A stretch of 64,000 bases of DNA from a virus: IMG/VR virus record IMGVR_UViG_3300013094_000025, positions 1 to 64,000 of that record; one strand, 5' to 3'. How positions within the stretch are numbered: position 1 is the stretch's first letter; every line of letters begins with the position of its first letter. A program made the position numbers and the translations under genes. This document shows positions 27,289 to 41,121 of this stretch, in pieces. The notes beneath the pieces were generated by a model, which saw only the letters and a program-made list of their open reading frames with translations, did not search any database and was not told the origin of the DNA.

Positions 27289-29082
27289 GTGCGCTTAGTT
27301 AGCTTTAAATCTTTATCGATACGTAATTTTTTATCTGTTGGAGATACGCCAATTATAATAAATTTTCAAGAAGGTATTAATGTAATTACTGGTATTAATT
27401 ACGATAAAGAAGATTCAAAAAACGGTGTAGGTAAGTCTACTGTTATTGATGCTTTATACTTTGCTCTTTTCGGTACAACTATTAGAGAGATTAATAAAGA
27501 TCTTATTACTAATTCATTTACTAAAAAAGTATGTGAAGTAAAATTAGAGCTACAGATTGATAATAACGGTAATACAAATATTTACAATATAGCTAGGACA
27601 CTTACCCCTACTAAATGCTTTTTATCTAAAGATGGTGTAGATATAACTCATTCTACCTTAGCTAAGACAAATGAGTTTATACAGAAGTTGCTTCGTTCTA
27701 CTGGTAAGGTATTTCAAAATTCTGTTATTATGACTATCAATAATACTGTGCCGTTTATGGCACAAAGTAAAATTGATAAGCGTAAGTTTATTGAAAGTGT
27801 TTTGAATCTTGAAGCGTTTTCAGAAATGCTCTCATTAACTCGAGAAGAATATAATCTTATAAAAAGAGATTATGAAGTACTGTATGCTAAGAATCAAACT
27901 GTTGAAAAGAGTTATAATACAAGTAAGACTCAATTAGAACGTTTTGAAGAAAATAAGCAAAATAGAATTAAAACAATTGCAGATAGAATAGCTGAAAATA
28001 TAGTTAAGATAGATAATTTTACTAAACAAATAGTAACGTTACCTGATAACGTCGATCAACTTATTACTGATAAGCGTACTTTACTTAATAACGAAATAAC
28101 AGACATACAAAAAAAGCGAAGAGATGCTGATAACGAATTAACAGTTATTCGAACAAATATTAGCTTACTTGAAAAACAACTTAAAGAAATAGAAAAAGAC
28201 GGAGCTAGTTGTACAACATGTAAGCGTCCTTTTCCTGAAGATGATTTAAAACATAAAGAACTGAATAAAAATGAAATTAATAATAGTTTGTCGTTACTTT
28301 ATAACGATAGAGAATCTGCAATAACTATTGTTGATAATATAGAAGATAGAGAAGATAATAAGAGAACAGAAATAAGAACTGTTGAAACAAAAAAAGACGG
28401 AATTAGTAAAGTAAAATCTACTAATGATGCTCTACAGACTAAAATTGTTTTTTTGACTGATAATAATAATGATTTACTGCTTGAGCAGCAAGATATAGCT
28501 CACGAAACAAATGCAGAATTAGAACAAACGGTTCAAGAACTTGAAACAGAGTATAACGATAATAAATCTCAAATTGAAAAATTAGACAATAATCTATCTG
28601 TACTTGAGTGCGTTAAGTTTGTAGTATCAGAAGAAGGAGTAAAATCGTATATTGTTAAAAAAATTCTTAAGGTTCTTAATTCAAGACTTGCTTATTATTT
28701 ACAAGTACTTGAAGCTAACTGTCTCTGTCAATTTAACGAATACTTTGATGAAACTATTACTGATGAAAAAGGTGGAGATAAATCCTACTTTAACTTTAGC
28801 GGAGGAGAACGCAAGCGTATTGATTTAGCATGCCTCTTTGCTTTCTTAGATATTCGTAGAATGCAAGGAGATGTACACTTTAGTACAATCTTCTATGATG
28901 AACTTTTAGATTCGTCTCTAGATGATAAAGGTGTTGAATTAGTAGTTAATATTTTAAGGGAACGATCTGAAAAGCATAATGAAAGCAGTTATATTATTAC
29001 TCACCGTGGAGTAGCCTTTACAGGTAAGGTAAATAATACAATTATGCTGGAAAAAAGAAACAACTTTACATATTTATTATAA
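27289..29082 (+). CDS. 46: Recombination nuclease subunit gp46 (SbcC/Rad50-like)
   Basis: SMC-like ATPase that works with gp47 in end resection. The 597-aa protein (T4 gp46: 560) has Walker A GVGKST near 48, a long coiled coil (about 190-480) interrupted by a zinc hook CTTC near 306, the ABC signature FSGGERKRIDLA near 503 and Walker B FYDELLDSSLD near 540. GTG start, positioned at the predicted transcription start. Physically separated from gp47 by the glycan island. Confidence 0.93.
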   Translation: MRLVSFKSLSIRNFLSVGDTPIIINFQEGINVITGINYDKEDSKNGVGKSTVIDALYFALFGTTIREINKDLITNSFTKKVCEVKLELQIDNNGNTNIYNIARTLTPTKCFLSKDGVDITHSTLAKTNEFIQKLLRSTGKVFQNSVIMTINNTVPFMAQSKIDKRKFIESVLNLEAFSEMLSLTREEYNLIKRDYEVLYAKNQTVEKSYNTSKTQLERFEENKQNRIKTIADRIAENIVKIDNFTKQIVTLPDNVDQLITDKRTLLNNEITDIQKKRRDADNELTVIRTNISLLEKQLKEIEKDGASCTTCKRPFPEDDLKHKELNKNEINNSLSLLYNDRESAITIVDNIEDREDNKRTEIRTVETKKDGISKVKSTNDALQTKIVFLTDNNNDLLLEQQDIAHETNAELEQTVQELETEYNDNKSQIEKLDNNLSVLECVKFVVSEEGVKSYIVKKILKVLNSRLAYYLQVLEANCLCQFNEYFDETITDEKGGDKSYFNFSGGERKRIDLACLFAFLDIRRMQGDVHFSTIFYDELLDSSLDDKGVELVVNILRERSEKHNESSYIITHRGVAFTGKVNNTIMLEKRNNFTYLL

Positions 29083-29085
29083 CAC

Positions 29086-30330
29086 ATGAGCAACATACTC
29101 TCCCATCATTCAGGTATTGCACACAATATTGGTGCACCTATTGGTCTACCTCCAGGAATACCTAGCACTTGTCAGGTATTTCCTTTACCTCCTAGTATGG
29201 CTTTACCACCACCAGAGATACCTGGTCAAGGTCTTCCTAGGGCTGTAAACTATTTAGCTGATTATGGTGGTTGTAGCTGGTATCGTTGTATGGCACCAAA
29301 CTTAATGCTCAACCTTTATAATAAGGCTGTAGTAATTGAGTCTACAACAATGGTTCTTGACCCTCGTTATTACCAGGGCTTAGCTGCTGTTAAGATTCAA
29401 CGTCAGGCAACACCTCAACAAAGAGAGTTTGTAACCTTCCTCAAACAAATTCAGAAAGATTGTGGATTTAAATTAATTTACGAAATTGACGATATTGTCT
29501 TTAGAGAAGATATTCCTGACTTTAATCGTAATAAGGATGCATTTACGTCAGATGAAATCCGTAACAGTATTATGGATATTATGAACATGTGTGACGAAAT
29601 TACTGTTACATGCCCGTTCATGAGAGACTACTTTAAAGAAAAGACGGGTAATCAAAATGTAACTGTTATTCCTAACTACCTATTGAAATGGTGGTTTGAT
29701 CGTTACTACAATATTAGTAATCTTGTTAACGCTTACGACAGAAATCAGAAGAAGCCTGTTATTTCAATCTTTGCTTCAGGTACCCATGTTGATGTAACAA
29801 ACAGAACAGGTCAAAATGATGACTTCGCTGCTATTATAAACGCAGTTATTAAGACACGTAAGAATTACAAATGGCAGTTCTATGGTTGCTACCCACTACC
29901 GTTAAAGCCGTTTATTGATTCTGGAGAGATCTTGTTTAGAGATTGGACTCAACTTCCTGACTTCCCAGGAGTTATGGCAAACTCTGGTACTCAGCTTACC
30001 TTTGCTGCTCTTCAGGATAATAATTTCAACAGAGCTAAGAGTAACATTAAGCTTATTGAAGCTGGTGCACTAGGACTACCTTGCGTATGTCCAGATATGG
30101 TTACGTATAAGGATGCTAGCTTAAAGTATAAAACTGGAGATGAGTTTATTGACCAGATCAAATACGCTCTTAAGGATCACGACCGTTATACTCGTATGTG
30201 TAAGGAAGCTCGTAAGTATTCAGAAAAGTTCTGGTTAGAAGATGAAAAGAATCTTAACAAGCACTTAGAAGCTTATACGACACCTTTCGGATCACCAGAT
30301 AGAAAGTATCTTAAAGAGTGTAATTTATAA
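29086..30330 (+). CDS. Glycosyltransferase (GT-B, GT4-like)
   Basis: A 414-aa protein. A Pro-rich N-terminus (about 15-50) precedes YGGCSWYRCMAPNLML and IYEIDDIVF; the C-terminal donor site reads KSNIKLIEAGALGLPCVCPD. It sits between gp46 and gp43, not in the 14.9-27.3 kb island, and uses more G/C-rich codons than that island, as do other core genes. Its place among replication genes leaves open a role in glycosylating DNA or virion proteins; no sequence evidence decides. Confidence 0.75.
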   Translation: MSNILSHHSGIAHNIGAPIGLPPGIPSTCQVFPLPPSMALPPPEIPGQGLPRAVNYLADYGGCSWYRCMAPNLMLNLYNKAVVIESTTMVLDPRYYQGLAAVKIQRQATPQQREFVTFLKQIQKDCGFKLIYEIDDIVFREDIPDFNRNKDAFTSDEIRNSIMDIMNMCDEITVTCPFMRDYFKEKTGNQNVTVIPNYLLKWWFDRYYNISNLVNAYDRNQKKPVISIFASGTHVDVTNRTGQNDDFAAIINAVIKTRKNYKWQFYGCYPLPLKPFIDSGEILFRDWTQLPDFPGVMANSGTQLTFAALQDNNFNRAKSNIKLIEAGALGLPCVCPDMVTYKDASLKYKTGDEFIDQIKYALKDHDRYTRMCKEARKYSEKFWLEDEKNLNKHLEAYTTPFGSPDRKYLKECNL

Positions 30331-30335
30331 TTTGC

Positions 30336-30363
30336 TTGACCGTCTTTAGAAAGCATATAGAAT
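30336..30363 (+). promoter_or_regulatory. Sigma70-like promoter of gp43
   Basis: -35 TTGACC (30336-30341), 16-nt spacer, -10 TAGAAT (30358-30363), then 6 nt to the GTG at 30370. Confidence 0.68.
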
Positions 30364-30369
30364 ATAGGT

Positions 30370-32697
30370 GTGTATAGAAACGCATCTTATAATCCTAAAG
30401 ACGGTACAATATATCTTCGTACTTGGTCAGAAGACGGAGATAGAATAGATACGGAAATTCCGTTCTCCCCTTTCCTTTATACAGAAAAAGATGGTGCCGA
30501 GGACGGAATATCTATTTTTAAGACTCCTTTAAGAAAGCATACTTTTCGTAATTCGTTTGAACGTAATAGATTTGTTGATGATACAAAAAACGGTCGTCTA
30601 TTTGGTAATCTACCAGTAGATCAGCAATTTCTTATTGAGATGTTTAACGCTGAAGTAGATAAAGTTGAGTTTAGTAAGCATCCGCTAAAGGTTTACTTCA
30701 TTGATATTGAGACGTATTCCCCGAATGAATTTCCTATTCCGAAGATCGCCAAAGACCCTGTAACTCTTATTACGATTCTTGATACTATTACGGGTAAGAT
30801 TCATACCTGGGGATTAAAGAACGATTATAAACCTACTTTAGATAATGTTACATATTATAAGTGTAAAGATGAGAGTGATCTATTTGAAAGATTTGTAAAT
30901 TTCTGGAAAAAAGATCCGCCAGATATTCTTACTGGATGGAATACAGAACAGTTTGACGTTCCGTATATTATTAATCGTGCGAAGAACCTTTTAGGTGAAG
31001 AATTCATTAAACAACTATCACCTGTAGGTCAAGTAACATATAGAGAAAGCTTTCAAAAGTTCGGTAAGGATATTGGTCGTTGGTATATTGCCGGGGTTAG
31101 TTGCTTAGATTACATGGAAATTTATAAGACGTATTCAAAAGGAGATAGAGAGTCTTATTCTTTGAATTATATTGCTGAATATGAACTTAACGAAGGTAAA
31201 TTAGCTATCAATGCTACTAATCTTTCTACTCTTGCTGATACTGATTGGAATAACTTTGTTGATTATAATATTCAGGACGTAGATCTCCTTCGTAAGCTTG
31301 AAGATAAACTTAACTATCTAAAGATTATTCGTTTGCTTGCGTACAAAGGATGTACAAACTTCGAAAGAGCTTTAGGAAAGGTATCGATTGTAACTGGTGC
31401 AATGTCGCTACAAGCTCGTAAACAAGGCTTTGTTATTCCTACGTTTAAGAATGAAACTACACGAGAAGCGTTAGAAGGCGGTTACGTGAGAGAGCCCGTT
31501 AGAGGCCTTAAAGACGCTATTGTAAGTTTTGACGTTAACTCCCTATACCCTAATACAATTATTACTCTGAATATCTCTTCAGAAACTAAGCTAGGTAGAA
31601 TTGTTACCGGAGATGTAGAGGTAGATAAAGAGATTGAAATTAAGCTCGTTAACGGAGGTATGTTTAAAATCGCAGTTAGTAAGCTAAAAGATTTCCTTAA
31701 GAAGGAAAACGTAGCTTTATCAAAAGCCGGTGTACTCTATTCTCAGAAGTTTAAAGGGGTTTGTCCTAATTTGATTAATAGTATTTACGACGAGCGTGTT
31801 TATGCTCGTAAGCAGATGATTGATCTTAAGAAGTCTAAAAAGAAAGATAAAGAAACTACAGCTGCTATTCAATACTTCGATACTCTACAATATACCTTAA
31901 AGATTCTTTTGAACTCTATCTACGGAACGTTTGCTAATAAGCATTCAGCGTTTATGGATATTGATAATGCTTCGTCAATTACCTTAACTGGCCAAGCTGT
32001 AGCAAAAGCGGGCGGTAACATTATTAACGAATATGCTAAGAATATCTTTAAAGTAAACGAGTCGTTGATTCTAAGCGGTGATACAGATTCTCTTTATATT
32101 ACCATTCAACCTATTTTAGATAAGCTTAATATACCCTTAACTATTGACGGTATTATTAATCCTAAGGTTCACACTATTGTTGATTCGATTGATAAACATC
32201 TCGGTGAAAAGATTCTTGATTGGGCTCGGGAAGAACTTAATTCGGCTGACCCTCGATTTGTCTTTAAAAGAGAAGCTATTGCTGACGTTGGTACCTTCTT
32301 AATGAAAAAGAGATATATTCTTCATATTTTAGATGATGAAGGTGTAGCAACAAATAAGTTTAAGTATGTAGGAGTAGAATTAGCACGATCAACGACTCCA
32401 AAACAGGTTAAAGCTATTATTCAAAAAACCATTGAGACGGCTTTCCTTACTAAAGATGTTAAAAAAACAAACGAAGTATTTAGAGAAGCTTATGACTTGT
32501 TTAGAAATCTTGATGTATCTGAAGCGTCCTTTAGAAGATCAGTAAAAGAACCAGACAAGTATTCAGCTGGAGCATCCTTAAACAAGTTTAATAAAGGTAC
32601 TCCTTGTCACGTTAAAGCGGCTCTAGCTTATAATATGCTTTTAGAAAAGATGAATTTACAAAACAAGTATGAGCTAATTCGTTCTGGTCAAAAGTAA
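30370..32697 (+). CDS. 43: DNA polymerase gp43 (family B), main frame without clamp-binding tail
   Basis: Replicative polymerase with proofreading exonuclease. The 775-aa product has Exo I YFIDIETYS (D112, E114), Exo II ILTGWNTEQFDVPY, Exo III YNIQDVDLL, motif A SFDVNSLYPNTI near 388, motif B ILLNSIYGTFAN and motif C LSGDTDSLYI near 570. It ends at TAA 32695-32697 inside the thumb domain. T4 gp43 has 898 aa, and the missing C-terminal 72 residues are intact in the -1 frame just downstream, beginning in the codon before the stop. The frame break lies at CAAAAGT. Either a sequencing or assembly loss of one A, a real mutation, or programmed frameshifting. GTG start after its own promoter. Confidence 0.93.
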   Translation: MYRNASYNPKDGTIYLRTWSEDGDRIDTEIPFSPFLYTEKDGAEDGISIFKTPLRKHTFRNSFERNRFVDDTKNGRLFGNLPVDQQFLIEMFNAEVDKVEFSKHPLKVYFIDIETYSPNEFPIPKIAKDPVTLITILDTITGKIHTWGLKNDYKPTLDNVTYYKCKDESDLFERFVNFWKKDPPDILTGWNTEQFDVPYIINRAKNLLGEEFIKQLSPVGQVTYRESFQKFGKDIGRWYIAGVSCLDYMEIYKTYSKGDRESYSLNYIAEYELNEGKLAINATNLSTLADTDWNNFVDYNIQDVDLLRKLEDKLNYLKIIRLLAYKGCTNFERALGKVSIVTGAMSLQARKQGFVIPTFKNETTREALEGGYVREPVRGLKDAIVSFDVNSLYPNTIITLNISSETKLGRIVTGDVEVDKEIEIKLVNGGMFKIAVSKLKDFLKKENVALSKAGVLYSQKFKGVCPNLINSIYDERVYARKQMIDLKKSKKKDKETTAAIQYFDTLQYTLKILLNSIYGTFANKHSAFMDIDNASSITLTGQAVAKAGGNIINEYAKNIFKVNESLILSGDTDSLYITIQPILDKLNIPLTIDGIINPKVHTIVDSIDKHLGEKILDWAREELNSADPRFVFKREAIADVGTFLMKKRYILHILDDEGVATNKFKYVGVELARSTTPKQVKAIIQKTIETAFLTKDVKKTNEVFREAYDLFRNLDVSEASFRRSVKEPDKYSAGASLNKFNKGTPCHVKAALAYNMLLEKMNLQNKYELIRSGQK

Positions 32698-32912
32698 AAT
32701 ATTTTTATGCCTCTAAAAACGTATATGGTTTAGATGCTTTAGCTTTTGTAAGTGAATTTCCAAAAGAGTTTAAAGATATTAAAATTGATTACGATAAGAT
32801 GTTCGGTAAGATTGTAACACCTCCTATTGAAGCTGTTTACGAAGCTATTGGATGGTATTTACCTATTATTGGTAAAGAAGTACAAACAGATTTATTCGAA
32901 CTCTTCTCTTGA
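32694..32912 (+). CDS. 43: C-terminal segment of gp43 in the -1 frame (thumb end and clamp-binding tail)
   Basis: Reading from 32694 in the -1 frame gives 72 codons to TGA 32910-32912. The peptide runs VKYFYASKNVYGLDALAF, then FPKEFKDIKIDYDKMFGKIV, PIEAVYEAIGW and ends QTDLFELFS. This is the expected continuation of a T4-type polymerase, and the last residues resemble the clamp-binding tail of T4 gp43 (LFDMF). The segment has no plausible start of its own and directly abuts the main frame, so it belongs to gp43. Coding is conserved to its end, which speaks against long-standing decay. Confidence 0.85.
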   Translation, partial: VKYFYASKNVYGLDALAFVSEFPKEFKDIKIDYDKMFGKIVTPPIEAVYEAIGWYLPIIGKEVQTDLFELFS

Positions 32913-32936
32913 TTAAGAAAAAATAGTATCGATAAT
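32909..32936 (+). promoter_or_regulatory. Sigma70-like promoter of the bilin cassette
   Basis: -35 TTGATT (32909-32914), overlapping the gp43-tail stop; 16-nt spacer; -10 GATAAT (32931-32936); 6 nt to the ATG at 32943. Confidence 0.62.
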
Positions 32937-32942
32937 TTTTAT

Positions 32943-33509
32943 ATGAGCGAACTACAAACACGTCTAAAAGAGGAAACATCAGATCTTCATAGTAAATCCG
33001 AACAGCATCCATTGATGCAATCATTTGTAGATGGTTCTTTTAAGAAAGAGCATCTTCTAGATCTTTTAATAAATCTTCTTCCTATCTATCAAGTTGTTGA
33101 ACAGCGCCTTCTTTCTAAAGAAATTCTAGATAATCCTGATCTTAAAAGAAGTACACAAATTCAAAAAGATATTGATAAGCTTATTTTAGATACAAGTATT
33201 ACGACACTTAAGGTTAGAGATATAACTGAAAAGTGGGTATCTTCTTCTTGGCAAAAATCCCTTTATGCTTTAAAAGCTGATCTCTACCTTCGTTGGTTAG
33301 CTGATTTTTATGGAGGCAGGATTCTTGCTAAGTCTCAAGCCCCTTATAACGAAACATATAATGCAAAAGATCCTGGAGCTGTAATTACTACAGTTAGGTA
33401 TCTCTTAACTAAAGATACACCAGATTTATATAATGATAGTATTGTACTAGAAACAAAATCTTTCTTTCACTTTCATATAAATCTATTTGAAGAAATATGG
33501 AATCACTAA
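32943..33509 (+). CDS. Heme oxygenase
   Basis: Opens heme to biliverdin IX-alpha, CO and iron using ferredoxin electrons. The 188-aa protein has the proximal-heme-ligand region LKEETSDLHSKSEQHPLM (H16) and the distal-helix motif WLADFYGGRILAKS (near 118-131), matching the GDLSGGQ-type helix of HO-1 proteins. Length is slightly under the usual 210-240 aa. It overlaps the bilin reductase gene by 13 nt and has its own sigma70-like promoter. Phage heme oxygenases are known from cyanophages and uncultured marine viruses. Confidence 0.85.
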   Translation: MSELQTRLKEETSDLHSKSEQHPLMQSFVDGSFKKEHLLDLLINLLPIYQVVEQRLLSKEILDNPDLKRSTQIQKDIDKLILDTSITTLKVRDITEKWVSSSWQKSLYALKADLYLRWLADFYGGRILAKSQAPYNETYNAKDPGAVITTVRYLLTKDTPDLYNDSIVLETKSFFHFHINLFEEIWNH

Positions 33510-34132
33510 GAAGATATTTTGATATTTTAACACAAGAGTTTACTAGTGCATTTGGTTATCCGGATCGTCCAGAATTAGATAACCCAAATGGTGTTTGGTA
33601 TAATAATGTATATAAGAGTCCTATTTTTAGACACATTCATTTACAATATTATAAAACAAATAAAATCGGTATTGTTCATGCTAATGTATTTCCTAGCGCA
33701 ACAGTAGATTTTCCTATATTAGGTGTAGACTTTATTGAAATAGGAAGTAAAGTTACAGGTTTCTTTTTTGATATTACACCGATTAACGCTAATCAAATTG
33801 TTCAAAAGAGTTTAATTAAATTTAAAAATGTAATTACATCTCCAGAAAGAAAACTCCCTGAATGGGCAAATTTCTTTAGTGAAAACTTTATTTGTGTAAC
33901 ACCTAATGAAGAAGAATTACTTTTACTTTTTACACACTCTTTAGCAATTATTAGAGAATATTTAGATTATTCTAAAACTTATAAAGATAGATATACTTTA
34001 AATGTTGAAAAGCAAAATGACTATTGTAAAGGTCAAAAGAAAAACGAAAAAACCTTTAAAGCTTTAGCAATTGATGTAGGGGAAGATAATGCTAAAAAAT
34101 TTATTAACAATTTTATGTTTCCTGAGCTTTAA
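33497..34132 (+). CDS. pcyX: Ferredoxin-dependent bilin reductase (PcyA/PcyX-like)
   Basis: Reduces biliverdin to a phycobilin. The 211-aa protein carries the family core IVHANVFPSATVDFPILGVDF; H61 and D78 are 17 apart, like His88 and Asp105 of PcyA. PebA and PebS usually have Asn at the His position, so this groups with PcyA/PcyX. An ungapped comparison places Leu49 at PcyA Glu76, the residue needed for exovinyl reduction, which would favour phycoerythrobilin rather than phycocyanobilin. The C-terminal YCKGQKKNEKT motif is also family-typical. The symbol is tentative; start overlaps the heme oxygenase by 13 nt. Confidence 0.82.
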   Translation: MESLRRYFDILTQEFTSAFGYPDRPELDNPNGVWYNNVYKSPIFRHIHLQYYKTNKIGIVHANVFPSATVDFPILGVDFIEIGSKVTGFFFDITPINANQIVQKSLIKFKNVITSPERKLPEWANFFSENFICVTPNEEELLLLFTHSLAIIREYLDYSKTYKDRYTLNVEKQNDYCKGQKKNEKTFKALAIDVGEDNAKKFINNFMFPEL

Positions 34133-34334
34133 TCTCTTTAACAAACAATTGAATAATTTCAGCCCCTTTAAATTTTAAAAGACGTTCATTAGTTATATTA
34201 AAATGTTCAAGAGCTTTTTGTATACAGTCACTTTTAGTAGCTGAGGCTGTTTTCCATAGATATACCGGACCCACTTTTATTACATGGACTATTCTTTTAT
34301 GAATAAAATACTTGACATTTGTAGAATTTGACAT
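34113..34334 (-). CDS. Small protein of unknown function
   Basis: A 73-aa basic protein, MSNSTNVKYFIHKRIVHVIK onward, on the strand opposite its neighbours. ATG 34334 is preferred because an ATG 11 codons earlier would overlap dpdA. It converges with the bilin reductase (20-nt overlap) and diverges from dpdA. The frame is open and the composition protein-like (WKTASATKSDCIQKALEHF), but no family is recognised. Confidence 0.45.
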   Translation of the reverse strand: MSNSTNVKYFIHKRIVHVIKVGPVYLWKTASATKSDCIQKALEHFNITNERLLKFKGAEIIQLFVKEIKAQET

Positions 34335-34339
34335 TATTA
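34312..34339 (+). promoter_or_regulatory. Sigma70-like promoter of the dpdA operon
   Basis: -35 TTGACA (34312-34317, consensus), 16-nt spacer, -10 TATTAT (34334-34339). Transcription would start near 34346, giving a leader of about 7 nt before the dpdA ATG. Confidence 0.55.
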
Positions 34340-34352
34340 TTGTACAATATTT

Positions 34353-35204
34353 ATGCTTATTAGCCACGAAACACCTATTAGTCTTCTAGATACCTCTAGA
34401 GGCTACAATGATTATGATTATTGTCTAGTACATTTACTACCTGAACAGTCGGAATATCTTAAATTTTATAAGGATTCCGTCGAAATGGGTAGACACGTAT
34501 TACTTGATAATAGTATTTTTGAACTTGGAGAAGCTTATGATTCAAAAGAATTTGCTTATTGGATTAATGAATTGAAACCTACTGAGTTTATTATACCTGA
34601 CGTTCTTGAAAGCACAGAAGGAACTATTGAAAGCTTTAAGAAGTTTACTAGCGAATATAGAAACCTTCCGAGTAGAAGTATCGGTGTAGTTCAAGGTAAG
34701 ACATATAAAGAAATTGTTGAATGTTATAATTTCTTGTGCAAGTATGTAACTAAGATTGCTATTTCTTTTGATTATTCGTTTTATCTTAATGAATGGCCTA
34801 CTTTAGAATCGTTTGAAAAAGAATTAGGAGTATTACCTGAATGGATAAAGGGACTCGAATTTAATAAGTGGGTAAGATATTCCTTAGGTAGAGTAGCTTT
34901 ACTTCATAGACTTAGTGCTAAGGATAACTATTTTGATTATAGAAAGGGTCATCATCTACTAGGATGTGCTACCCCTTGGGAGTTTAAACTCTATAACAAG
35001 ACGCCGTATAAGATGTGTATTGAATCAATAGATACTTCTAATCCTATTGTAGCAGCTATTCTTCATAAGAAGTATAATCCTGTTTATGGGCTACATGAAA
35101 AGTGGTCAGTAAAACTAGTTGACTATATTGGCGCTAATATAACTCGAGAACAGCTCGAATTAGCTTTTTATAATACGTCCCTATTTAGAAAATTCTGTTC
35201 ATGA
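34353..35204 (+). CDS. dpdA: DpdA-like DNA guanine transglycosylase
   Basis: TGT-superfamily enzyme predicted to swap guanine in DNA for a 7-deazaguanine. The 283-aa protein keeps RHVLLDNSIFELGE (D52, in the position of the TGT general-base Asp), FIIPDVLEST (80-89), SIGVVQGKTY (109-118, substrate-binding Gln-Gly) and HHLLGCATPWEF. It is shorter than tRNA TGTs and lacks their C-terminal zinc Cys cluster, as expected of phage DpdA. Followed with a 4-nt overlap by a formyltransferase, then a P-loop kinase and queF. The DNA role is inferred from that context and family; no tRNA-type TGT is present. Confidence 0.82.
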   Translation: MLISHETPISLLDTSRGYNDYDYCLVHLLPEQSEYLKFYKDSVEMGRHVLLDNSIFELGEAYDSKEFAYWINELKPTEFIIPDVLESTEGTIESFKKFTSEYRNLPSRSIGVVQGKTYKEIVECYNFLCKYVTKIAISFDYSFYLNEWPTLESFEKELGVLPEWIKGLEFNKWVRYSLGRVALLHRLSAKDNYFDYRKGHHLLGCATPWEFKLYNKTPYKMCIESIDTSNPIVAAILHKKYNPVYGLHEKWSVKLVDYIGANITREQLELAFYNTSLFRKFCS

Positions 35205-35722
35205 GAAAATGGGTAACGTTTTTTAGTCAGACAGGTTCTGAAATTTATAAGCTTTCAAATAGACTCGGAAGAAATCCGGATATTATTGTAACAAATAGTA
35301 CAAAGATTAGGCCTGAAGTTGTTGATAAGTTTGGAGATAGTATTGTTTACGTAGGTCCAAAGCCTACAGTAGAAGATTATCTTAGGTTTATACCCGTTAA
35401 TAGTTTAGTTACTCTTCACGGATGGCTTAGAATAGTGCCTGAAGAAGTATGTGATAGGTACGAGATTTATAATCTTCATCCAGCTAACCTGTTTCATAAC
35501 CCTGAATTGAAAGGTAAAGATCCTCAAAAGATGGCCTATAAACAGAAACTAATATTTTCCGGTAATACTATTCATCGCTGTACAGCCGAATTAGATTCCG
35601 GAGAGATACTTGAACATAGTTATACTTCTATTGAAGGCTTAACGTTAGATGAAATTATTGCAACATTACATGAAGATGCTACAAATTTGTGGTATAGATT
35701 TTTAAAAAAGCATTTACAATAA
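35201..35722 (+). CDS. dpdN: Formyltransferase, candidate dPreQ1 formyltransferase (DpdN)
   Basis: A 173-aa 10-formyl-tetrahydrofolate-dependent formyltransferase fold. FFSQTGSEI near the N-terminus corresponds to the SGxGSNL strand of GAR transformylase. The catalytic triad appears complete: N91 and H93 in IYNLHPANL, D132 in ELDSGEIL. It overlaps dpdA by 4 nt. In published work on phage 7-deazaguanines, an enzyme named DpdN was proposed to formylate preQ1 in DNA to the 7-(formylamino)methyl form. Adjacency to dpdA and queF makes that the best hypothesis; purine or sugar formylation are alternatives. Confidence 0.72.
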   Translation: MRKWVTFFSQTGSEIYKLSNRLGRNPDIIVTNSTKIRPEVVDKFGDSIVYVGPKPTVEDYLRFIPVNSLVTLHGWLRIVPEEVCDRYEIYNLHPANLFHNPELKGKDPQKMAYKQKLIFSGNTIHRCTAELDSGEILEHSYTSIEGLTLDEIIATLHEDATNLWYRFLKKHLQ

Positions 35723-35726
35723 ACGA

Positions 35727-36284
35727 ATGAAAATTGCTATTTCAGGTGCTCATAGTCAAGGTAAAACTACTCTTGTAAAGTGGTTGCAGGATATAAATGT
35801 TTTAACTGATTATAAGTTTAGAACTTCTTTAACGAGAGGAATGCAGAAAGCGGGGTATAATATTAATGAAGATGGGGATGAGGTAACTCAATTAGCTATT
35901 ATGGCTAAGCATTTTCAGCGACTTAGTGAAGTAGGGAATATAATTTATGATCGTTGTGCTTTAGATGGTTATGCCTATTCTATGTCTTTAGTAAAAGATC
36001 TTAAAGTTTTAGATATTATTAGAGATATGTTTTTATTAATGGTGGATAGATATGATATTATTTTTTATGTTGAGCCGGAGTTAGATCTTATAGAAGATGG
36101 TCAAAGGACAGTAAATAAAGATTTTTTTGATAGTGTAGTGCAATCTTTTGATTGTATTATTAAATCATATGCAATACCTGTTGTAAGGCTTAGCGGTTCT
36201 GTAGAAGAACGTGCTAGACAATTCTTTGTAGCTTTACAGGATAAAGAGGTAGAAAAACACAACAACGAATTTTACGAATTATGA
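35727..36284 (+). CDS. NadR-like/AAA_28-type P-loop kinase, second copy
   Basis: A 185-aa P-loop NTPase starting MKIAISGAHSQGKTTLVKWL (Walker A at 7-14), with IIYDRCALDGYAYSM corresponding to FDRCVLDNIVYS in the paralogue at 3666-4295. It sits between the formyltransferase and queF (overlaps queF by 4 nt), while the paralogue sits directly behind queE. Both copies therefore accompany 7-deazaguanine genes. Substrate unknown; a nucleoside or nucleobase-derivative kinase, or a DNA-modification accessory ATPase, would fit. Confidence 0.72.
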   Translation: MKIAISGAHSQGKTTLVKWLQDINVLTDYKFRTSLTRGMQKAGYNINEDGDEVTQLAIMAKHFQRLSEVGNIIYDRCALDGYAYSMSLVKDLKVLDIIRDMFLLMVDRYDIIFYVEPELDLIEDGQRTVNKDFFDSVVQSFDCIIKSYAIPVVRLSGSVEERARQFFVALQDKEVEKHNNEFYEL

Positions 36285-37192
36285 GTACAACTAACATGAA
36301 TGACATTGCATCGAAGTCTTTAGGATCTTCGGCTTCGTATGCAGTATATACCGATACGTTTGATCCTACGCTTCTTAACCCGATGCCTCGATCCCTAGCT
36401 CGAGATGATTGGGGTATTAAAGCTGGAAGCTTTGTAGGATTTGATACATGGCATTGTCATGAAGCTACATTCCTTCTTAATAGTGGAGTGCCCGTAGCAG
36501 GTACACTAAAGTATGTTTATTCTTGTGACTCTGAGTTTATGGTAGAGTCAAAGTCTGCTAAGCTTTATTGTAACTCGTTTGATATGTGCAAGATGGGTGA
36601 GAATTATTCTCAGGCAATTGCTAATTATGAGAATCAAATTAAAACAGATCTCGAAAATATTCTTAAGACACCAGTATCAGTTAAGTTTTTCCGTTCAGGA
36701 TCTGATAATAATGCTGTAGACTCTGTTCCTGATTATGTTGATCTTACAGATAAGATTCATTTTAGCACTGAGATTACTGATTATGCTTCTAAGGAGGAGC
36801 ATTTAAAGTTTTATTCACTTGAAGATGGTAACGAAATTGTAGAATGTAAATATTTTACTAATGCGTTGAGGTCTCGTTGCCGTCATACAAAGCAGAAAGA
36901 TACAGGTACGGCTTATATTCATATTATTACAAAGGGATGTGAAGTAAATCCGGTATCACTCTTTAAGCAAATTGTATCGTTACGAGAAGTTAACGAGTTC
37001 CATGAATTCTGTGCTGAAAAGCTTTATACAAGTATTAAGAGTCATCCAGCAGTAATTGATTGTGCTGTAACTCTTCTTTATGCTCGTCGAGGATCGCTTG
37101 ATATTAACCCGACAAGGGCTAGTCGAGCTGATCTTCTTCCATCTGTTCTTATTAATTCAAATGTCTATACAAAAAAGGCAATGGGTCAATAA
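36281..37192 (+). CDS. queF: NADPH-dependent 7-cyano-7-deazaguanine reductase
   Basis: Reduces preQ0 to preQ1. The 303-aa long (bimodular) form: the N-terminal half has VESKSAKLYCNSFD (88-101), the binding signature; the C-terminal half has the catalytic Cys200 in LRSRC and Asp207 in KQKDTG, seven apart like Cys190 and Asp197 in E. coli QueF, and H241-E242 in FHEFC. It completes the preQ1 branch begun by folE2, queD and queE. Because it makes preQ1, the modified base is expected to be preQ1-derived, not preQ0 or archaeosine-like. Confidence 0.92.
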   Translation: MSTTNMNDIASKSLGSSASYAVYTDTFDPTLLNPMPRSLARDDWGIKAGSFVGFDTWHCHEATFLLNSGVPVAGTLKYVYSCDSEFMVESKSAKLYCNSFDMCKMGENYSQAIANYENQIKTDLENILKTPVSVKFFRSGSDNNAVDSVPDYVDLTDKIHFSTEITDYASKEEHLKFYSLEDGNEIVECKYFTNALRSRCRHTKQKDTGTAYIHIITKGCEVNPVSLFKQIVSLREVNEFHEFCAEKLYTSIKSHPAVIDCAVTLLYARRGSLDINPTRASRADLLPSVLINSNVYTKKAMGQ

Positions 37193-37239
37193 GATTCACA
37201 CTAGCACAAAACACAAAACTAATATAATATATTAACGAT

Positions 37240-37623
37240 ATGAGCGAAACAACAAACAAAATCACAATCTTCTTTGACTCTGTAGGACGTACAATCCTCG
37301 GAGAACGAGTTGACGAAGCAACAACAGATACAGTTCTTTCTATTAAGAACCCAGCAGTTGTCCACATTATGCCTAACCAGCAGACAGGACAGCTTACTCT
37401 TCAGATCCTTCCTCTCTTCTTCAGAGAGTTCTTGGCTGATAAGACCGAAGCTACAACTTGGAAGTATAACCGTTCACTCATTACTGAGTGCAATGATATT
37501 GCTTTTGACTTTAAGCTTCAGGCTCAGTACCAGCAGATCTTCAATCCTAGTCCAATTATCACTCCAGGAGGTGTCACACCAGCCGATAAGACTGACGTAG
37601 TCCGTCTTTTTGACGAAGAATAA
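37240..37623 (+). CDS. Conserved-type T4-like phage protein of unknown function
   Basis: A 127-aa protein, beta-rich at the start (ITIFFDSVGRTILGERV) and ending in an acidic tail (VVRLFDEE). It uses clearly more G/C-ending codons than its surroundings, as gp32 and folE2 do, suggesting high expression. TATATT ends 7 nt before the ATG, matching the window's promoter geometry, though no clear -35 is seen. I recall similar small genes beside uvsX in marine T4-like phages, without a known function. Confidence 0.6.
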   Translation: MSETTNKITIFFDSVGRTILGERVDEATTDTVLSIKNPAVVHIMPNQQTGQLTLQILPLFFREFLADKTEATTWKYNRSLITECNDIAFDFKLQAQYQQIFNPSPIITPGGVTPADKTDVVRLFDEE

Positions 37624-37652
37624 TTGGATTTAATAGAAGCAGCATCTAATAT
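37624..37652 (+). promoter_or_regulatory. Sigma70-like promoter of uvsX
   Basis: -35 TTGGAT (37624-37629), 17-nt spacer, -10 TAATAT (37647-37652), 6 nt to the ATG at 37659. Confidence 0.52.
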
Positions 37653-37658
37653 TGTCGT

Positions 37659-38756
37659 ATGGCTAAAAACGAACTCTCTCATTTAAAAGATATTTTTAAA
37701 TCTGTCGATGACTTAAACCCAGACGCTGCAGTATTAGATGCTGCTACTCTATCAACAGCAGATGATTGGATTGATACAGGATCATATGCTTTAAACGCAA
37801 TTATTTCAGGGTCTCTTTATAAGGGAATTCCTGGAGGTCGTATTACAGGTTTTGCCGGTCCTTCTATGGCTGGTAAGACTCTTATTATGAGTAAGATTAT
37901 GGCTAATGCTCAAAAGAAAGGCTATATACCTGTTATTTGGGATTCTGAGGTAGCCGTAGATAAGAAGAGTGCTGAAGGCGCTGGTATGGATTCAGCTCGT
38001 GTTAAGTATTATCCGGTAGAGACAATTGAAGATTGTCGTAATCAAATGTCTGCTTTCCTTGATAATGTTATCAAAGCAGATAATCCTGATCTTAAGTTTA
38101 TTGTTGCTATCGATTCCCTCGGTAATCTAGCAAGTGCTAAAGAGATTAAGGATGCTACAGCAGGTAAAGACTCTGCTGATGTCGGTCAACGCGCTAAGGC
38201 AATTAAGTCTATGATGCGCACACTTACCTATAAGGCTGCTAAGGCTAAGGTACCAATTTTGTTTAGTAACCATATTTATGAAGGAATGGAAATGTTTCCT
38301 ACTCTTGTTAAAACTCAGAGTGGTGGTAAGGGGCCGATTTATCTTGCTTCGGTTCTTGTACAACTTAGCACGAAGAACGAGAAAAGCAGTGACAATCCTA
38401 ATGAACAATCTGTGGCTATTGCTCATAATATTTCAGGTGTTACGTTAGGAGCAATGACAGTAAAGAATCGATTTGTACCTTCTTATCTCAAGACTGAACT
38501 TTATTTAAACTTTAAGTCAGGGCTTGATAAGCATGCAGGTCTTTTTGAAATTGCTGAAGCCTTTAAGGTTATTGAAAAGCCAGGACGTACAGTAATGTAT
38601 AAAGGTGAGAGTCTTGGTTACAGAAAAGATCTTGAAAAAGATCCTAAATTCTGGGAAAAGATTATGCCAGAGCTAGAGAAGGTTCTTCAAGAACAACTTT
38701 GCTATGGTACAGGGGATTCAGTTGATATTGAAGAAGAAGTCGATAATATCGAATAA
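37659..38756 (+). CDS. uvsX: Recombinase UvsX (RecA-like)
   Basis: Forms filaments on single-stranded DNA and drives strand exchange for recombination-dependent replication. The 365-aa protein (T4: 391) has Walker A GPSMAGKT near 67, IDSLGNLAS as Walker B region, LFSNHIYE and the SGGKGPIYLASVLVQL loop. The C-terminus is acidic (DIEEEVDNIE). It overlaps the gp41 gene by 1 nt, so recombinase and helicase are co-translated. Confidence 0.94.
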   Translation: MAKNELSHLKDIFKSVDDLNPDAAVLDAATLSTADDWIDTGSYALNAIISGSLYKGIPGGRITGFAGPSMAGKTLIMSKIMANAQKKGYIPVIWDSEVAVDKKSAEGAGMDSARVKYYPVETIEDCRNQMSAFLDNVIKADNPDLKFIVAIDSLGNLASAKEIKDATAGKDSADVGQRAKAIKSMMRTLTYKAAKAKVPILFSNHIYEGMEMFPTLVKTQSGGKGPIYLASVLVQLSTKNEKSSDNPNEQSVAIAHNISGVTLGAMTVKNRFVPSYLKTELYLNFKSGLDKHAGLFEIAEAFKVIEKPGRTVMYKGESLGYRKDLEKDPKFWEKIMPELEKVLQEQLCYGTGDSVDIEEEVDNIE

Positions 38757-40105
38757 TGTCTGCTCCCACTCCTGGTAAGCTAGATCTCGATTATTACGAG
38801 AACATTATTCTTTTTAATTCTCTTCTTAGTCAAGAATATCTAGCTTCAATTATTGATCATGCTGATCCTACTTACTTTAATGATAAAAGTATTCAAACAG
38901 TTTTTAAGTGCATTATATCGTTCTTTACTGAACGTGGAACAGTGCCTACAGCTACTGAAATTAAATCCAGACTCTCAACAGACGAAGAGAGACGATCATT
39001 TAATGAAGTAGTAACTCGCTTTAAAGAACTAGATACAAAGTTTAATAAAGAGGAGCTTCTTAATAATACAGAGAGGTTTCTAAAAGAAAGATGTTTGTAT
39101 AAAACTATTGTTGATACTGCAGAAAAGTACTCTGAAGGTAAAGCAGATCCTGCTGAGATATTAAAGGAGTTTGAAAAAGCTTATAATATTAATCTTAGTG
39201 AGGATATGGGTCATTGGTACTTTGAAGAAGTAGATGAGCATATTAAAGAACTTACTAAAGTATATAATGCTATTCCTACAGGATGGAAATTCTTAGATGA
39301 GAAAATTGAAGGTGGTTTATTTCCAAAGTCTCTTTATTGCCTAGTAGGTCAAGTTAATATTGGTAAGAGTATTTTCCTTGGTAATATTGCTGCTAATATG
39401 GTAATGAAGAATAGAAATACTCTTCTTATATCTTTGGAAATGTCTGAGTTTATGTACGCTAAACGTATTAGTGCTCAGCTTACCCAGATTCCTCATCATA
39501 GTCTTAAGTTGTATACCGATGAACTTAAAGATCAAGTTAAGCATATTGAACGACAGTTAGAGAGTAAGCTTATTATTAAAGAATACGCTCCAAAGACAGT
39601 AACAGTAAGAAATATCGATGCTTATATAACAAAACTAGCTCACAAAGGGTTTAAACCTGAAGTAGTTGTTATTGATTATATTAATCTTCTAAAGCCAACA
39701 TCTAAGAATCTTAATTCGTACGAGTCTGTAAAAGAAATAGCAGAACAACTAAGAGCAATGTCATTTAAGTATAATATACCTATTGTTACAGCTTCTCAGC
39801 TTAATCGTGGAGCGTTTAATACAGCCAGTCCAGGTATGGAAGGTATTTCAGAATCTATTGGATTAGCAGCAACTTGTGACGTAATTTGTTCTTTGTGGCA
39901 AGAAGATGAAGATAAAGAATTAGGTATTATTAATCTCGGTATGCAAAAGAATAGATTTGGAGCTAACTTTGGTAGCTGCGCTTTTAAGGTTAAGTACGAA
40001 ACTTTAACTCTTAACGAGGTTAGTGCTGATCACTTTACTACTGAAACTCCTCAACAGGCTGTTAGTGATGCTCAAAGTGCCTTACAAAGTTTATCTGAGC
40101 CTTGA
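38756..40105 (+). CDS. 41: Replicative helicase gp41 (DnaB-like)
   Basis: Hexameric 5'-3' helicase. The 449-aa protein (T4: 475) has an N-terminal helical domain (to about 160) and a RecA-like core: Walker A GQVNIGKS near 198, Walker B VVVIDYINLL near 303, and TASQLNRGAF near 342. It works with gp61 (217-1227) and gp59 (40453-41121). Confidence 0.94.
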   Translation: MSAPTPGKLDLDYYENIILFNSLLSQEYLASIIDHADPTYFNDKSIQTVFKCIISFFTERGTVPTATEIKSRLSTDEERRSFNEVVTRFKELDTKFNKEELLNNTERFLKERCLYKTIVDTAEKYSEGKADPAEILKEFEKAYNINLSEDMGHWYFEEVDEHIKELTKVYNAIPTGWKFLDEKIEGGLFPKSLYCLVGQVNIGKSIFLGNIAANMVMKNRNTLLISLEMSEFMYAKRISAQLTQIPHHSLKLYTDELKDQVKHIERQLESKLIIKEYAPKTVTVRNIDAYITKLAHKGFKPEVVVIDYINLLKPTSKNLNSYESVKEIAEQLRAMSFKYNIPIVTASQLNRGAFNTASPGMEGISESIGLAATCDVICSLWQEDEDKELGIINLGMQKNRFGANFGSCAFKVKYETLTLNEVSADHFTTETPQQAVSDAQSALQSLSEP

Positions 40106-40141
40106 TAAATGTAACAATATGTAGTAAATAAAGCTACATAT

Positions 40142-40456
40142 ATGTTTAATGAAAAGGTATTAGACGATTTCTTATCTAAGAATGACCCTTTAAAGCAAAT
40201 TTGTACAAAAGAGTTTATACTCGGTGTATTTAAATTTGGTTCCTTTTTATCTATTTTACATAATAAAAGACTAAATCCTTCAGCAGTATTTGTTCTTATA
40301 TTAGAAAGTAAAGAGATAAGAGATTTATTCGTAGATGTCACTCACTCAGAAAACGCTAAAGAAGCCTTACTTGGCCTCTTGCAACTTTACCCGCCGCTAC
40401 TAAAATCAAAGAATACTAAACGACTATTCAAGAAATCAATATCCGGCAAAAAGTGA
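40142..40456 (+). CDS. Small helical protein of unknown function (possible gp33 position)
   Basis: A 104-aa basic protein, MFNEKVLDDFLSKNDPLKQI onward, ending in a Lys-rich tail (KRLFKKSISGKK). It lies between gp41 and gp59 and overlaps gp59 by 4 nt. T4 places the late co-activator gp33 beside gp59, and the size fits (112 aa), but I see no clear sequence similarity. The gp33 idea is only positional. Confidence 0.55.
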   Translation: MFNEKVLDDFLSKNDPLKQICTKEFILGVFKFGSFLSILHNKRLNPSAVFVLILESKEIRDLFVDVTHSENAKEALLGLLQLYPPLLKSKNTKRLFKKSISGKK

Positions 40457-41121
40457 CTGAACTAGAAAAAAGAATTTACAATAAACATTTAGCGGTGTCT
40501 CGATCTTTACGTAATAAGCCCTTTAAACTTAAAGGTGATTTTACTAATTTTAAAGATAGTACAAAATACCCTTCAATAAAAAGACTTTGTATATTCTTTA
40601 ACAAGTATCCTGATGTTGATATGGATACATATTTTATGGCTCCATATAAGCTATATTCTGATACTGATTATTTTGATTTAGCTTATTTTGCCTCACCTAG
40701 AGCTATCAAAGCATATACAACTTATAAAAATCAGCTTTTACAAATGTCTCCAGACAAGCAACAAAATGAAGTTAAAGAATCATTATTGTTTATATCAAGA
40801 TTTTGTTTAATGAACAAAATTCAACTTCATGAATATCCTACTTTTAGATTTAAAGGTATGGCTCCAGAATGGGTATATCATTTAAAAAGTAATAAAATAA
40901 ATCCGTATTCTTTGATGGAATTTCGAGGCATTTTTAATTATATAAATGAGATGCCCTTTGATGAAAGAGAGTTATTACTTGGTAACTTTGGTAGTAACTA
41001 TGTAGACTATAAATCCCGTTACAATTCATCAACAACATTAAAACCCTTTCTTTCTGTAGCCGCAGAAAAATTAAAACTTTTTATAGATAAGAGCTTGAAC
41101 AGTTCAAAATCTTATGTATAA
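40453..41121 (+). CDS. 59: Helicase loader gp59
   Basis: Loads gp41 onto gp32-coated forks. A 222-aa, basic, all-helical protein (T4 gp59: 217). Features comparable to T4 gp59 include an N-terminal IYNKHLAVSRSLRNKPFKLK region, MSPDKQQNEVKESLLFISRF and a helical C-terminal domain. Position between gp41 and gp32 supports the call. GTG start overlapping the previous gene's TGA (GTGA). Confidence 0.75.
   Translation: MTELEKRIYNKHLAVSRSLRNKPFKLKGDFTNFKDSTKYPSIKRLCIFFNKYPDVDMDTYFMAPYKLYSDTDYFDLAYFASPRAIKAYTTYKNQLLQMSPDKQQNEVKESLLFISRFCLMNKIQLHEYPTFRFKGMAPEWVYHLKSNKINPYSLMEFRGIFNYINEMPFDERELLLGNFGSNYVDYKSRYNSSTTLKPFLSVAAEKLKLFIDKSLNSSKSYV

Follow-up and report, generated by a model that had tools for sequence, protein, structure and literature searches.

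The gp43-like polymerase gene and its surroundings

The window analysed here, a 64,000-nucleotide stretch of DNA taken from a 97.9-kb virus record, carries on its plus strand a gene for a gp43-like family B DNA polymerase, identified from Pfam and from the match with its relatives. The main frame (30370..32697) starts with a GTG at 30370 and ends at a premature TAA (32695-32697) after 775 amino acids, the final codons being GGT CAA AAG TAA. The last part of the thumb and a C-terminal TDLFELFS end, which resembles a clamp-binding peptide, are encoded on the same strand in the -1 frame (32694..32912). This tail begins with VKYFYASKNVYGL and ends in QTDLFELFS; its full translation, VKYFYASKNVYGLDALAFVSEFPKEFKDIKIDYDKMFGKIVTPPIEAVYEAIGWYLPIIGKEVQTDLFELFS, corresponds to 72 codons and is followed by a TGA at 32910-32912. 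The break point itself, CAAAAGTAA (32688..32697, plus strand), has four A's, compared to five in the near-identical relative L002/L082. The frame break is confirmed as a feature of the sequence: the main-frame stop, the 72-residue tail and the A4 run at the junction are as the first-pass annotation had described them, in their coordinates and in translation.

The body of the polymerase matches PF00136 (1.5e-26) and PF03104 (2.5e-22), i.e. a family B polymerase and its exonuclease domain, and the best solved-structure match for a full-length relative is RB69 gp43 (5e-69). Both domains are therefore present and the best solved relatives are the RB69 and T4 enzymes, as is expected of a T4-type gp43. 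The nearest matches in annotated phages are also T4-type polymerases, mostly from cyanophages (32-34% identity).

By alignment, residue 775 corresponds approximately to residue 829 of 903 in RB69 gp43, which places the break inside the thumb, as had been noted before, and well upstream of the clamp-binding peptide (residues 883-903 in RB69 gp43, PMC3012046). The clamp-interacting peptide of T4 is 892-SLDFLF-897, and clamp binding is abolished without the last six residues (PMC12746103); the earlier likening of LFELFS to this peptide is reasonable. A putative clamp-interacting peptide is thus encoded and conserved; the window has it out of frame, L002 and the other tail-covering relatives in frame. 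Since the stop lies near RB69 residue 829, a short product would be missing both the clamp peptide and part of the thumb. The thumb lysines 840, 870 and 874 of the T4 enzyme touch DNA (PMC12746103). Judging from the alignment, stopping here would not simply free an otherwise complete polymerase from the clamp.

Regarding the neighbouring genes, a glycosyltransferase-like gene whose family matches are weak (29086-30330, plus strand) lies between a gp46-like gene and the polymerase. Directly 3' of the polymerase, the region 32943-34132 (plus strand) codes for a heme oxygenase (PF01126) and then a ferredoxin-dependent bilin reductase (PF05996), whose nearest solved structures are PcyA (2g18) and, more weakly, a PcyX entry (5owg), and whose best match in an annotated phage is from Pelagibacter phage Mosig (28%). 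The relatives L002, L004 and L009 carry the same pair, L003 carries the oxygenase as far as its contig extends, and the remaining loci that were retrieved yielded neither gene. Cassettes of the heme oxygenase/bilin reductase type have been described in aquatic phages (PMC11480375). Further downstream, a QueF-like protein is encoded at 36281-37192 (plus strand; NCBIfam TIGR03138, 4.8e-50, below the family cut-off), which suggests that the phage may carry a deazaguanine pathway gene. The window's record yielded no aminotransferase-like alaS candidate (PF00155).

The break site in relatives and selection on the tail

A scan of IMG/VR with the polymerase body protein gave 80 relatives (49-100% amino-acid identity); uninterrupted polymerases from relatives match the body protein end to end. 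The contigs of 73 of them reach the site of the break, and all 73 are open through it: in 72 the frame continues to the stop of the tail, and in L077 it is still open where the contig ends, 20 bases past the site. The relatives' single polymerases match frame 1 of the window to about 32694-32718 and continue in frame 3 from 32688-32691 to 32909 (73-99% identity, E 1e-29 or better). Because these uninterrupted proteins align across both frames, the frame relation between body and tail is not due to chance.

The protein of L002 is identical to the window polymerase over all 775 residues. Its full contig, L082 (IMGVR_UViG_3300022602_003536, 13,095 bases), aligns to positions 27547-40640 of the window and differs from it, over 13,095 positions, by two substitutions and one single-base indel (99.98% identity). 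This sole indel is at the break site, where L082 has the fifth A and its gene is unbroken. L082 was also the only contig of the same population recovered across the junction by an exact-pattern scan that tolerated up to two additional bases and from which the window's own record was possibly excluded. As for the two substitutions, that at 28128 is synonymous, and that at 28076 places an Arg at residue 263 of the gp46-like protein; L082 has a Leu there, which is common in the relatives, and Arg is found in none of them. This window-specific Arg263 fits a slightly noisy consensus, and comparison with the relatives suggests that the substitution at 28076 is possibly another consensus error. Of the three differences from L082, two are therefore specific to the window, a pattern that a small number of consensus errors or of recent mutations could explain.

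The open frames of the relatives were also compared with all six frames of the record. In the 45.3 kb of the window that can be aligned and in 10.7 kb of the remaining record, the matches switch frame in the polymerase gene alone, and the break is therefore an isolated event. A generally poor, indel-rich contig is ruled out by the finding of one frame break only in the alignable 45.3 kb.

The substitution rates of the tail resemble those of the body. Compared to L003, dN and dS are 0.012 and 0.47 in the tail and 0.013 and 0.53 in the body, so that dN/dS is about 0.025 in both; compared to L004, they are 0.045 and 0.90 in the tail and 0.020 and 1.06 in the body. Against L003-L006, the dN/dS of the tail is 0.025-0.09. 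Such values show a tail that is normally translated in this lineage, under purifying selection like that on the body. Old decay, against which the first-pass annotation had argued from the intact coding of the tail, is indeed ruled out: the dN/dS of the tail is close to that of the body and a second lesion is absent. The selection on the tail is silent on whether the allele seen in the window is real, since this allele is younger than the divergences that were compared.

Recoding, a split gene or a missing base

Two mechanisms would give the break a function. In a first mechanism, ribosomes shifting by -1 at the A-AAG that precedes the UAA would make a full-length, clamp-bound polymerase besides a shorter, clamp-free one. 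A tRNA-Lys that slips back by one base from AAG can pair with AAA while a stop codon occupies the A site, and the frame required is the one in which the tail is conserved as coding sequence. On the contrary, the closest relative needs no shift, and the site-covering relatives have one open frame (73 of 73) in place of a conserved overlap with a slippery site; uninterrupted relatives are among the results that the first-pass annotation itself had named as refuting frameshifting. The 96 bases 3' of the site (32695-32790) are only as structured as their shuffles (z -0.19, in a model of folds free of pseudoknots) and the region has no Rfam match, so that no stimulatory structure was found downstream; inspection of the sequence upstream of the site gave no evident Shine-Dalgarno-like stimulator either. 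The CAA AAG pair is ordinary: 59 long ORFs contain 17 in-frame copies, the polymerase body contains two (counting the break site), and several intact relatives have it at the break position. Last, the short form would be deprived of the counterparts of the DNA-contacting Lys-840, -870 and -874 in addition to the clamp peptide. We consider this mechanism very unlikely. More doubtful still is a variant in which a new A4 site would be tolerated in this one lineage thanks to low-level slippage at A-AAG-UAA, as an incipient two-form polymerase that is absent in relatives. In a second mechanism, the polymerase would consist of two polypeptides like 43A/43B of Aeromonas phages, the tail being a protein of its own. 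A split gene 43 has precedents in T4-type phages (PMC2988022), but here the tail frame has no ATG, GTG, TTG or CTG before 32799, which is half-way through the tail, no sequence is inserted at the break, and none of the 73 relatives is split there into a second piece with its own start; a split polymerase is hardly credible. An independent tail protein is ruled out, since the tail has no start codon until half-way and none of the 73 relatives shows a split. Even taken together, programmed frameshifting and a split gene are quite unlikely to explain the break.

We propose instead that the one-base shortfall is a consensus error, made in sequencing or assembly, to which we give a probability of about 0.7. 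The polymerase of this phage population would be an ordinary, single, uninterrupted gp43-type gene, of which the window contig is one A short, and the 72-residue tail would simply be the end of the polymerase. An error is favoured because a 99.98% identical contig is intact and differs at precisely this base, and because all the site-covering relatives are uninterrupted. Against it, short runs of four or five A's are rarely miscalled by short-read sequencing, and the contig has no other frame break, hence it is not generally bad. The alternative is a very recent, real deletion of a single base by which part of the population would have lost a working polymerase; such a genome would be a dead end, or would be maintained only where a mixed infection provides complementation. 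A runs commonly lose bases by mutation, both flanks are intact, and, apart from two substitutions, the indel is all that separates the window from the near-identical contig, which makes the change a recent one. However, the polymerase is essential in T4-type phages and its gene is under strong purifying selection here; the 97.9-kb record yielded no other family B polymerase, so that, on the evidence of this record, the allele would leave a phage without a complete replicative polymerase; and one would expect a lethal allele to be too infrequent to make the consensus of a contig. A recent deletion is the next most likely account, if a doubtful one, and we infer that the cause is an error rather than a rare real variant. 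Among the three options of the first-pass annotation, the loss of an A in sequencing or assembly and a real mutation are thus supported by L082 and the 73 relatives, whereas frameshifting to two functional forms is disfavoured by the unbroken relatives, the lack of structure, the commonness of CAA AAG and the loss of part of the thumb.

Were the break functional, one gene would give both a clamp-bound and a clamp-free replicative phage polymerase; the comparison argues against this, and the break is most likely not a new way to make two forms of polymerase. In practice, caution is called for: a metagenome contig that lacks a single base of an A run can look like a case of recoding, and one near-identical contig suffices to expose the shortfall.

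Comparison with known systems

Like T4 and RB69 gp43, the window polymerase has exonuclease and polymerase domains, which match those of RB69 gp43, and the encoded tail ends in a short hydrophobic/aromatic motif comparable to that of T4. Unlike these enzymes, its frame is broken after residue 775, while it is unbroken in the window's relatives. The window shares with programmed frameshifting of the dnaX tau/gamma type an A run with a stop directly after it, but it has neither a conserved slippery site nor a detected stimulator, and its close relatives read through. In the Aeromonas phages 25 and 44RR, an inserted sequence splits gene 43 into 43A and 43B, each half being a gene of its own, and the two halves from phage 25 co-purify with activity (PMC2988022). 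The coding of the window polymerase likewise falls into two frames or pieces; it differs from 43A/43B in that there is no insertion and no early start for the tail, and the 73 relatives that cover the site keep the gene in one piece.
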